DNA of 64,000 nucleotides from Sipunculus nudus. Its lineage: Eukaryota; Annelida; Sipuncula; Golfingiida; Sipunculidae. Below, in pieces: positions 36,201-44,345 of the stretch. Position numbers and translations under genes: made by a program. Every line of letters begins with the position of its first letter. Position 1 is the first letter of the stretch. Location: positions 46,090,401 through 46,154,400 of the forward strand of contig CM049317.1 in assembly GCA_026874595.1 (NCBI GenBank). Direction: 5' to 3'. The notes beneath the pieces are model-generated. The model was given only the letters and a program-made list of their open reading frames with translations, did not search any database and was not told the origin of the DNA.

Positions 36201-39200
36201 TGAATCCGCCAGTAAAGGAACCTGTTATAATGTTTTCGAGTGAGACAGTCACTGCATTCAGTCAGTGTGTTAAACCCGGATCCCACTCCGGATCCCGGAA
36301 CCCAAGAAAAATTTGTAATTCTTAAACTCTCATGGTAATTTGTCCAGATATTTTAGCATAATCGTATCTAAAAACATATTTTATATTATGTTTGGTTAAA
36401 ACATAAAAAATAGTCTGTTTTGCAACAAAATTTGATAAAAAAAAACACTTACGGACCCTGGGGCACGGACCTCACGGATTACACAGACCCCGTTTTCTCG
36501 TTGTTTTACCATTTCTTTAGTACATACATGTATTTGACATCACGTTTAGCCATGACACATTTGTGATTTATTATTGTGTTAGTATCTGTATTTTTACATT
36601 TCTGTCACAGTTTTTATTCATAATTTTATATTTGCTATTTATTTCATTTGTGTAGCGTTTTAAAAAGTATTATAATTTAAAACATTTACAAAATCATTAT
36701 TTTGGAACCTGTAGTTGCTTGAATTGCAAGTAATCAACAATTCCTTTCGGTATTTATATTATTGCCAACTTTAAAATTGCATGGTTGTTGTGAACGGAGC
36801 ACGAAACCTGTTGTTATGTGGAAGTGCTCTGATATATCAGTCTCAGGTCCGCTCAGCTGTTAGTGCACTTCAAATTAAATCTCCCCCACTGTGTCCGCAC
36901 TATTATATTTTCATTTAAAATAACAAATATTATATTTACTTTTTAGTGTGTGACACGAGTGCTATTTTTGTCCTCTTTTAGTCATAAATAAAAATATGAG
37001 CGGTGATTACTGGGGTCCGTCAAAATTGAACAGTCGGCAAATTCAAGTAAATGAGGTTCGAAATATTTTTGTAATTATTAATCTTTCAGTGAATCGGTCA
37101 TTTATACAAATGTGCAACATTTAGGGACTTTGCTCTGTTCTTACATCAACAATAGTGGTGTTTTTATCGGTATAAATAATGGAAAATGAGGAAATAGGTT
37201 TATGGGATCCGGGGACCGTGGGGTTCGGGTTTTACACACTACCCTGCATTCACTACCGCTCGAAAAATTTTCATTCTTTGAAAGATCCCCCTTTTGAGCA
37301 TTTTCCTCACGCGAGATCTCCTTGTGCACAATAGACCTTTTCGCTGCGCGGAGGTTGCCTTTTGAGAAGGGATCACCAATGGGGATTATTTCGGGCCGGT
37401 CACCGCAAATTTAAGAAAACCCCAGATAGGGCCCCCGGAGAAAAACTCTGTCCCGCCATCAAACACTCTGTGGCCATTGTGTTACCGGGCCCAAAGACAC
37501 AAAGAAAAGAGGCGCCCGCGGGGGAGCAAATATTAAAATTATTAATTATGCAGGTAATACGCAAATATTGCAAATAAAAGGGGGCGGAATCTCTTCGGAC
37601 AAACCCAGAACATATGTATGTCGAAAATCACGGCTATCTGTACGGCGGTATCAGAGGAGATACGGAAAATCACAAAAATCGCCTTACGCTATTAATATAT
37701 AGATTGTAACTGTACTATCACATCATACAAAGATAAGGAACACCAAGAGGTGCTATGGCCGGGAGCCGCAAGACGCAAACTCCCCGCCGTGTATTAAAAA
37801 TACAGTTACATGAAATCAACCAGTATACGAATACATTGAAGAGAAAAAAAAATTAAATTAAACGTGTGGCCCCCGCTACCACCAGGTGACCACCTACACT
37901 GAAAATGGCCAGCGTGGCCGACTAACGACGCATGACGACACGGATGAACGCATGTGCATGAATACTAATTAACTCCCCTCACCCCGCGAACCTTCCCAGT
38001 GTACAACGATGATCAGCGTGTCAACACTGTTAAAAGTTGCACGTAAAATAACGGTGCTTTGCACCGGCAGCAAAGTTGACAGTGCAATGCACCGTTATTT
38101 TACGTGCAAAGAAATAACGCAGTGCGTTAAATAACGTCGCATTGCACCGTAATTTTACAGCGCTTTGGGACGTAAATAAACGGCGCTTAGCCACGGGAAA
38201 TAACGGGCATCTGTTATTTTACGGGACAATATGCCGTTATTTTACAGTGCTAAGAGACGTGAATAAACAGTGATTTAAACTGGAATCAGGGCATTGCACC
38301 GTTATTTCACGGTGCTTTGATATGTAGAATAACAAAACATTGTTACTTTAATAAATAACAGTGCTTTGCACTTGGAGCTAGACACTGTTACAGGTTTCCA
38401 TAATCTTTCTCAAAACGTTTCTGTCTTGTCACTCCGGACGAACCCTTTATTTGTATCTGTGTACTTCAGGTTTCTCATAACATGTTTTTTAGATTTTACC
38501 AGTAAAAATATTACGAACGAAGTCAGACCTCCTTATGATGATAGAGTTGTAACTTTCTGTTTGACAGTCAAGTGTCCCGAAAATCAAATCAGGATATCCA
38601 CAGAGGGAAATGCATCTTGGCTAATTTGGGAAATGGCATTAAAAATGCATGCTCACACATAATATCACACCACTTCTTTATTGTATGAAATATTCAACAG
38701 GTCATCAACATGTACAACACGTGTACTTAATGTATATAGATATTCAGATTATATTGATCTTCCAAAAGGCATCATTAGGAAGCAAACATATTAAAACATT
38801 TTGACCACACTGCCTGGCAGTTAAATCGTCTCCAACTAAACGTATAACATTTGGCAATTAGTGCAATATTATTATGATTACTATTATGAATACTGTGTGT
38901 AATCTCATTAAGTTTGCTGATCTTTTTAACAATAGGGCCCAAATCTATTTATAATGTATCTTTGAAAAATAGATAAAAGTGCATTAGTAAATTTATAGTG
39001 TTGTAAATTAATGGTATCTTTAAAGTAAAAGATGGTCAGAACACAAGTCAAACAATTGAAATGGATTTAACTTATATGTCACCAAATCTTTCTACAGTAA
39101 AGGCATCTACTTTGTGTGAAGCTTCTGATAATGAATTCCAAAATAAAGGTCCTTGGTAAATAAATGATTTTTGCATCAATTAAATTCGAACTGGAGGGAG

Positions 39201-40151
39201 TTGAAGAGAATGCCTACACTGTAACAAGGGTGCAAATGTAAACGTTTTTCCATTAAAAATAATAAGATAATTACCTGATTTAATTAAGGTACTTAAACAC
39301 AAGAATATTAAAAGTGAAATAGTCGTTAACTGATATTTCCTATATTGTTGAATATATTATAGAGGAAAATGCAGCATTAAAACATTAAATCTGACCAACA
39401 AGCTCTATTGACAGTGGGAGGGCAGTTAGAGGTGCATTCAATGACCCCAAAATCAAGAAACCTGAAGGTCTTTTTAGTCCCTTGGGATACTCCAGGGTAA
39501 ATATCCAAAATGACGCATAGCAAGCCTCCAGTGGAAGTAGAAATAACTTGCATGGGTTGAGTTTCTGGCCATCCACCATATGTTACACTGATGTTACAGT
39601 CCCCATCTTGAACATTCACAGGTGTTGGAGATCTCATTCCCTGCATACAAAATAATAAACAGAAAAGAGAGATTGTAAATGTAAGAAACATGAGAGAAAT
39701 ATGCAAGACTATAGTTCAGTGCAATTATCCCTTTAATTTTTATATTTTTTTAGATTTTTTTCAAAGTCTGACGCTCTATCAATTTACATTACAGAAAATA
39801 AACTTTTGTTCTTTCTTCACAAAATACAAACAATAGGGAACCTTAAGAAGTGAAAATAATTATACATTATTATATCAAATATATCTTTACATTAATAACT
39901 GGCCAAGATTTTGTTCTATCTCCGAAAAAATAAACAATTTCAACATTTTTCTTTATATATGTATTTACTTAAAAAAGGTTAAAACTATCTTTAATACTTG
40001 CTGAATATATTAACACAAATATAATAGTTTTGAAAGAATTACCTCTCCTCCATCTGCAATCCCATATTATCCTTGCATTCTCCAAACAGTGAAGGCAGTA
40101 TCCTGTATATAGGAGCTTTACTTCTGCAAATACAAATACACAGACAATGCA

Positions 40152-40210
<59 letters not shown>

Positions 40211-42603: not shown

Positions 42604-42664
<61 letters not shown>

Positions 42665-44345
42665 CATGTATATTTATACCATTCATGCATGATATACACC
42701 CAGACATGGCCAGGTGTGTGTGTTAGTGGGTCGGAGGGGGGGGGGGGGGGGGGGGGGGTTTGCTTCCTTTTTCCTAATTGGCAATTCCCTGAAACTAAAA
42801 AAGCCTTTATCATTAATGATAAACATTGGCATCAATGCAGGGAATGGGGGTTATATATCCCCCCTCCCCACTTTTTTAACAAGGGGGGATTGGTCAATGT
42901 AATCATCCCCAACACTGATATTGAGCAAGTATAACAATTACTTTTATATATTGGACATGTAATATATTATTAATTAGAAAACTTGACTTTGTTTCCATTT
43001 CTGAGTTAACTGAAATATAAGGTTATCTAATAATCTAAACATGGTTTAGAGTTGACATTTAATGGAAACATAAAACCTGCACTTAATTAATATATAATAT
43101 CAACATCACACAAATGTCACACATTATAAAAGGTGTATATATATAATATATATACACATATATACATAATATATATTTCCATTTCAATCACTCTTCTACC
43201 CCTGCCAGTGACAGTCGCCCCCCCCCCCCCCCAACTGAGGGAACACACGAACGAGACTGGCCTCGTACCACTATACCATTACCAACGTACACTATACACC
43301 AGTATTAGAATAACAACTAACACAGTAAACAGGTTTATGCCTACATATTAAAGAAGAACATTTTACCAATGAAGATGCTGGGTAACTTCTGCGACTTTCA
43401 GCAGCCAGCAGACGGACAAAAATGGCTCCTCTTCCCGCCGTGGAGTCAAAAGATCCAGGATGTTGACGTCATGAGTGGCCCCGCTGATCACATGACGCGC
43501 GGTTTATTTCATCTGTACCGTCTGCTTTACACACGTGTCACACCATTTTCACAGACGCTCATCATTTTACGTTGCATTTGCGCGTTATTCAACGCACAAG
43601 AGCGTCTACATTGCAAAGCGGCGTAAATTTACAGTCTTATGCGCCGTTATTTTACGGTAATTTTTAACAGTGAAGGTGCATTCCATTATACCTGTATAAC
43701 GGGACCGCATTCCCATTATACCTTCCATTAACAAGATAGTGAGTTTTTATCCTAGAGTTTGATTTAATCGGGCCACAATATAGTGCAGTTGAGAGAGAAG
43801 CCAACAGTCGTATATGAGCACTTAAATACCTCACTGGGAGCCTCGCTGAGCCAATTTTTTTTTTTATATTGTGTTTAACGGGCCCACTTTGAAGAGTGCC
43901 GCGCATGCACGGGATAATAGTAAGAACTGTGCAGTCTGAGGCTTAGATTTTAGAAACTATCACTGTATGGCTATCGGACTCAATATATATGACAAAACCT
44001 AACAATATTGAGTCCGATTAAATCGGGTTAACCTACGATATGCTGCAAATTCATCAACAACAAGGCTTGCGCTGAACAGAAACAGTGGCAGCAGATCAAT
44101 GCGTGTCAACTTTCTGAATGAGATATTCTAATTCTAACTGCTATATTTAATTATTCATGTTCTGATCTGAACAGATGTAGTATATTATGTTTACATTATT
44201 TAAAATAAATCTAAGTTCCCTAATATCTTATAATTTTTTATGCTACTTTTCATTTTACAGAGAGCGTCCTCGTTAGAGTATTATAATGTCTAACTATAGG
44301 ATTTCATCCTGTTACTCTGATATTGGTTTAATTGTTTTATATTTA

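Follow-up and report, generated by a model that had tools for sequence, protein, structure and literature searches.

The element and its ends

The DNA analysed here, hereafter the window, is a stretch of 64,000 nucleotides from Sipunculus nudus (assembly GCA_026874595.1, contig CM049317.1, positions 46,090,401 to 46,154,400), in which the original prediction had placed an unrecognised spliced gene carried inside a CACTG-ended transposon. The features of that transposon are listed in Table 1. Our best supported reading is that the element is one copy of a cut-and-paste CACTA-like (CMC) family, with no transposase in the copies read, and a working spliced gene in the window copy is not supported. 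The CACTG termini sit exactly at 38025 and 43672 and are flanked by ...TCAA on the left and AAGG... on the right, giving a 2-bp target duplication, AA. The CACTGTTAAAA inverted ends are imperfect, 33 bp on the left and 32 bp on the right. Subterminal copies of GTTATTTTAC accompany them: with at most one mismatch in either orientation, eight fall in 38043-38333 and one at the right end, and by the same rule 11 matches are scattered over the remaining 58 kb of the window. The transposon, its inverted ends and its subterminal repeats, all read initially from the letters of this one stretch, are therefore confirmed, and the genome itself adds to this with a repeated family and exact 2-bp duplications.

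Table 1. Positions in the window of the element, its ends and its exon-like islands
Feature	Position	Strand	Basis
Entire element: CACTA-like DNA transposon copy that lacks a transposase	38025..43672	.	5,648 bp; ends, sister copies, AA/AA flanks
Left terminal inverted repeat (TIR), CACTGTTAAAAGTTGCACGTAAAATAACGGTGC	38025..38057	+	End comparison, genome end-pattern matches
Right TIR, minus-strand reading CACTGTTAAAAATTACCGTAAAATAACGGCGC	43641..43672	-	End comparison, genome end-pattern matches
Left subterminal block, GTTATTTTAC repeats in both orientations	38037..38333	.	Self-complementary stretch 38037-38109 included
Right subterminal GTTATTTTAC copy	43646..43655	+	Repeat search
Promoter-like G+C-rich block and possible first exon E0	43365..43560	-	Sequence, GC profile
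Exon-like island E1, 93 nt	42138..42230	-	Acceptor score; donor TAT/GTAAGT kept in aligned copies
Exon-like island E2, 183 nt	41073..41255	-	Element's best splice-site pair
Exon-like island E3, 81 nt	40043..40123	-	Splice-bounded; missing from copies L019-L021
Exon-like island E4, terminal	39377..39640	-	87-codon frame

A repeated family with exact 2-bp target duplications

The genome searched was that of the window itself (1.43 Gb, 153 contigs). An end pattern of 28/29 bases gave 219 exact matches and its reversed control none. The 11-mer by itself tells nothing, with 1398+1410 matches where its reversed control has 1471+1140. Among the first 100 end-pattern places listed, 82 combine into 41 facing left and right ends less than 15 kb apart; 24 of these pairs measure 5.4-5.8 kb and nine 6.0-6.75 kb, the rest being seven pairs above 6.9 kb and one of 96 bp. 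At C6:65616260-65616355 two facing family ends stand 96 bp apart, perhaps a minimal deletion form like a miniature inverted-repeat transposable element. Four sister copies on contig C1 align with the window copy from end to end, three of them at 93-95% identity; the sister copy L011 is more diverged, with 82-89% identity to the window copy depending on the piece. A DNA search with E4 returned 317 candidate places, of which the 40 scored are all at least 97% identical, and 29 of the 30 E4-matching copies that were fetched (one of them, L017, being the window's own) align from the left end. Because near-identical copies occupy separate places, the family appears to have been active recently.

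Target duplications are exact and short. In all nine copies in which both flanks were read, 2 bp are duplicated (six TA and one each of AA, CA and TT); none of these duplications reaches 3 bp, and the chance of a 2-bp match is about 0.06 for each. Left flanks of 26 copies selected through E4, including the window's, lean the same way, with 18 TA, three CA, two AA and three others, when L019 and L020, which have a common flank, are counted as one insertion. Copies also differ internally: L012 carries a tandem duplication of about 1 kb, in which the element region 40692-41743 is present twice, and L019-L021 match the window copy at 99.5-99.7% on one side of their E3 gap and at 97.9-98.1% on the other.

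These features fit CACTA/EnSpm (CMC) elements. Such elements have inverted ends starting CAC (CACTR), as do the CACTG ends of the window and sister copies; a target duplication of 2 to 3 bp, which is 2 bp in all nine copies here; and, typically for CACTA elements, subterminal repeats, of which the GTTATTTTAC repeats are the counterpart. Several relatives are described in the literature: ENS1_Cis and CMC-NA combine 5'-CAC...GTG-3' ends with a 2-bp duplication (PMC6004678), SmTRC1 has CCC ends and a 2-bp duplication in 7 of 14 copies (PMC1636069), and Spongebob likewise has CCC ends and a 2-bp duplication (PMC4298943). Compared with animal CACTA elements, the present family shows a strong TA preference and, in the copies read, no transposase. 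TA duplications liken it to ESTA, an EnSpm-like group described from fungi, with CA..TG termini reported to be common to most of the wider group (PMC12730594); it differs from what is given there in being an animal family that has no known transposase and is also found at AA, CA and TT sites. A name for the family was not found in the literature searched, which falls short of showing that the family has never been described.

Exon-like islands inside the element

Four minus-strand exons joining in frame (phases 0, 2, 2) to about 177 codons had been proposed inside the element. What stands of this proposal is a set of splice-bounded islands, E1 to E4, which recur in the aligned sister copies, bar E3 in L019-L021, so that the same islands are indeed found between CACTG ends at other loci. 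The splice-site pair of E2 scores 21.7, and 3 of 32 other stretch-strands in the window score higher; the acceptor and donor contexts of E2 are weaker in the three copies of subfamily B. G+C content is raised at several islands but also at some stretches outside them. A G+C-rich block, present in 5/5 aligned copies (the window's own counted), contains TGACGTCA at 43464-43471 and a candidate exon E0 that ends at 43365 before GTAAAA; we infer the likeness of the block to a promoter, as well as any meaning of the motif.

What does not stand is the single in-frame protein. E2 of the window carries stop codons in each of the three frames. The exact chain that had been proposed could not be identified: once the E2 and E3 donors are fixed, the element offers no ATG-to-stop chain of about 177 codons with phases 0-2-2, and under lax splice cut-offs 26 other chains within the element match these phases and this length. 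Nor are three consistent junctions improbable by chance, as had been argued, since at ordinary splice cut-offs four-exon ATG-to-stop chains of at least 177 codons occur in 23 of 30 stretch-strands of equal length in the window, the 30 including four that overlap the element. The longest minus-strand frame in the element, from stop to stop, is 112 codons.

Other copies are broken as well, an outcome that the original prediction itself had named as fatal to a gene. A protein search across the genome gave 726 candidates, 150 of which were scored (about 120 matches to E4 and 30 to E2). Each of the 30 E2 places scored has a stop in the searched frame; 14 scored E4 rows are free of stops, and just one of these takes in the frame from where E4 begins. 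Of 34 copies, with that of the window counted, ten have the 87-codon E4 frame open. All ten fall within the 11 copies that share a 2-bp length difference, and in the other 23 a stop is reached by codon 66. We therefore rejected the 87-codon frame as ancestral, because it is restricted to that 2-bp difference in 11 of 34 copies, the window's included. Across copies, then, we found no frame that is kept in the way expected of protein-coding sequence.

Divergence between subfamilies

Copies L009 and L011, representing subfamilies A and B, differ by 6.5% in E1, 8.6% in E2, 10.0% in E3 and 7.5% in E4, against 6.8 to 11.5% in the introns, 3.4% in the left subterminal block and 0% in the right TIR. 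Judged by this comparison, the ends of the transposon look kept and the islands mostly do not. Third-position changes in the best shared frame of E2-E4 are convincing neither for A against B (16/33, with the four unaligned first columns of E4 excluded) nor for A against L070, a copy of a third subfamily, C (17/45). In L070 the E2 stop is kept and the E4 stop falls at the same position as in A; its length differs in E2 and E3, and it adds no support for an ancestral frame. Judged by eye and only after the fact, the differing lengths would allow an in-frame passage from E1 into E2, with E1 itself unread in L070.

Searches for relatives and for a transposase

Like the original prediction, the searches recognised no protein family. 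Five translations of the element had no match in Pfam, and searches of Pfam, PDB and viral contigs (IMG/VR) brought no credible relative of the islands. The weak hits, all of which we put down to chance, were a designed helical protein from PDB (with E-values for the whole sequence of 1.4e-4 and 5.2e-4, yet no single stretch better than 100), AIR2 in PDB (E 0.065 and 0.48), T4_baseplate in Pfam (E 0.11, 0.044 and 0.011) and MGAT2 in Pfam (E 0.032). A presumed likeness to the NEPRO N-terminal domain (PF14780) was not supported by any hmmscan match; a genome search with PF14780 at E 0.001 also returned nothing, which proves nothing as the control genomes were silent too. Rfam and tRNA scans of the window found nothing.

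Neither the element copies read nor the Pfam answers contain a transposase. Transposase_21 (PF02992) is found at seven places elsewhere in the genome, and the DNA read at these places (about 3.4 kb per place, and 9.9 kb at two of them, element boundaries there being unresolved) shares short repeats only, with no match to the ends or the islands of the family. As a source of the islands, the Transposase_21 proteins of the genome were rejected: in a comparison with five copies the best E-value, 0.30, was not significant. Three of the Transposase_21 genes (L046, L048 and L049, at C5:65958699, C8:57458013 and C2:44916544) have open frames of 858-973 codons, and the copies on C8 and C2 are 98.6% identical over 7.5 kb and thus probably mobile or duplicated. 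The oversized end pairs were considered as possible autonomous elements and rejected as such: five of the seven pairs above 6.9 kb were read (C3:33667737, except for the leftmost 1 kb, C5:52373699, C7:39551869, C5:74857980 and C3:26229874; C2:47096906 and C4:14479704 were left out), and these five are copies of the family in which other DNA is nested.

The 40 scored E4 DNA matches showed no parental copy lying outside the transposon, and among the 150 scored protein candidates none was recognised as a separate gene, the ends of these candidates not being inspected singly. A diverged parental copy could stay hidden because family copies take up the search lists.

Other repeats in and around the element

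Several other repeats touch the element or its copies. Inside it, downstream of E4, a minus-strand frame at 39075-39179 with a GPLFWNSL motif is a candidate C-terminus of a non-long terminal repeat (non-LTR) retrotransposon polyprotein. A repeat of about 40 bp occurs at 42064-42104, 51510-51550 and 17287-17318 of the window, near Transposase_21 genes (L046, L051 and L052) and at the ends of nested inserts in L054, L055 and L057; it resembles the end of some other abundant mobile element. Related inserts of about 2.6-3.2 kb are nested in family copies, near window position 40904-40915 in L055, L056 and L057 and near 38979 in L054. L055 and L057 carry the same insert (98%) and therefore multiplied after the insertion, and in L056 a related insert lies about 10 bp or less from that site. 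In the family copy at C3:33667737, the nested DNA has two open frames next to each other (L053:25-1881), of 346 and 272 codons, the second resembling a tyrosine recombinase by eye only. Copies of an interspersed repeat lie inverted at 40254-40531, in an intron-like gap of the element, and at 61532-61816, with about 70% similarity.

Outside the element, similar GARGGANIK... frames at 7771-8070 (minus strand) and 37430-37702 (plus strand) appear by eye to be one interspersed repeat, whose second copy stops shortly before the transposon. Plus-strand frames at 45174-45910, directly to its right, are candidates for a Penelope-like element with a GIY-YIG end. Further away, a minus-strand exon at 19241-19606 matches the C-type lectin domain (Lectin_C in Pfam, E 7e-5).

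Discussion

We conclude that the element is probably a transposon copy that holds no working gene for a protein. Its movement can be pictured from what is known of CACTA elements: a transposase supplied in trans would bind the CACTG ends, and probably the subterminal GTTATTTTAC repeats, excise the element and insert it with a 2-bp stagger, duplicating 2 bp, usually TA. The interior would then be passenger DNA, made of exon-like islands, simple repeats and fragments of other repeats, and the islands would be copied because the ends move them and not through the making of a protein.

A number of observations weigh against this picture. The autonomous partner with CACTG ends was not found, so that the superfamily is read from the ends and the duplication only, and for this reason we say no more than CACTA-like. 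SmTRC1 and Spongebob have CCC ends where the present family has CACTG, and the TA preference also fits other groups with TA duplications, although the AA, CA and TT sites speak against a strict use of TA. Two of the islands changed less than the introns, E0 at 2/86 sites between A and B and E1 at 0-1/93 sites within subfamily A, both counts being too small to decide. Finally, one frame through E2-E3-E4 has a single stop shared by A and B, which dinucleotide shuffles keeping the same pattern of changes reach in 0.24% of cases (P 0.0024), in a test made after E2-E3-E4 had been picked as islands. For islands that once coded, this result is suggestive only. We nevertheless consider it rather likely that the islands stem from a spliced gene, one already broken by the time the main subfamilies spread. 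Of the two origins proposed initially for a gene, capture from the host or a new protein of the transposon, neither is supported for a working gene in the copies read, given the broken frames and the intron-like divergence of E1-E4, and either may apply to its ancestor.

The islands may be what is left of a gene of the transposon's own, for a transposase or an accessory protein, the element being a degenerate derivative of an autonomous one; we regard this as possible, with some reservation. Transcription would then start near one end and run inward, and SmTRC1, an animal CACTA relative, makes several spliced transcripts (PMC1636069). Against such an origin, the five copies compared are not significantly similar to the Transposase_21 proteins of the genome and no transposase is present among the Pfam answers. 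More tentatively, the islands could be a piece of a host gene, including promoter, exons and introns, that the transposon took up and multiplied as a Pack-TIR. A promoter-like block and E0 lie just inside the right end and are followed by islands with splice consensus in the same orientation, and the E2-E3-E4 frame has fewer shared stops than the shuffles; what counts against capture is that the scored matches, in lists filled by the family, include no parental copy outside the transposon and that Pfam and PDB hold no credible relative. Pack-TIRs are documented in animals (PMC8277862), where they share with the present family a TIR element with a gene-like interior and include multicopy cases. 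TIRs and a target duplication, as expected around a captured piece, surround the interior here; the differences are that no parental copy is identified here and that the copies far exceed the few given there for each multicopy case. Capture and an own gene cannot presently be told apart because the genome searches were filled by family copies, and either would be a known kind of event.

As tentative as capture is the reading that the islands are chance matches to splice sites in non-coding DNA. Long in-frame chains are common in the window, the splice-pair score of E2 is surpassed elsewhere in it, neither third-position count is convincing and the C copy has its E4 stop where A has it; on the other side stand the rarity among shuffles of a frame with one shared stop and the higher G+C at several islands, a feature that some non-island stretches share. 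Less probable still is the most far-reaching version, in which a CACTA-like transposon captured a multi-exon host gene together with its promoter and spread as a Pack-TIR to about a hundred or more loci, the protein, with its cysteine-rich end, belonging to no described family and the decayed copies being possibly kept as spliced non-coding RNA. That the window copy bears a functional spliced gene with about 177 codons is very improbable: the junctions do have splice consensus, but E2 has stops in every frame, the frames differ between subfamilies, E3 is deleted in near-identical sister copies and E1-E4 change no slower than introns between subfamilies.

The locus is thus an example of how a convincing spliced "gene", drawn from a single transposon copy, dissolves when sister copies are compared. 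What remains is a real transposon family with decayed, gene-like contents, the origin of its islands being undecided. If the interior is a captured gene, the family would count as a Pack-TIR whose copy number is unusually high for an animal. In either case, the analysis documents an apparently recently active CACTA-like family in an animal, with an exact 2-bp target duplication that leans to TA.

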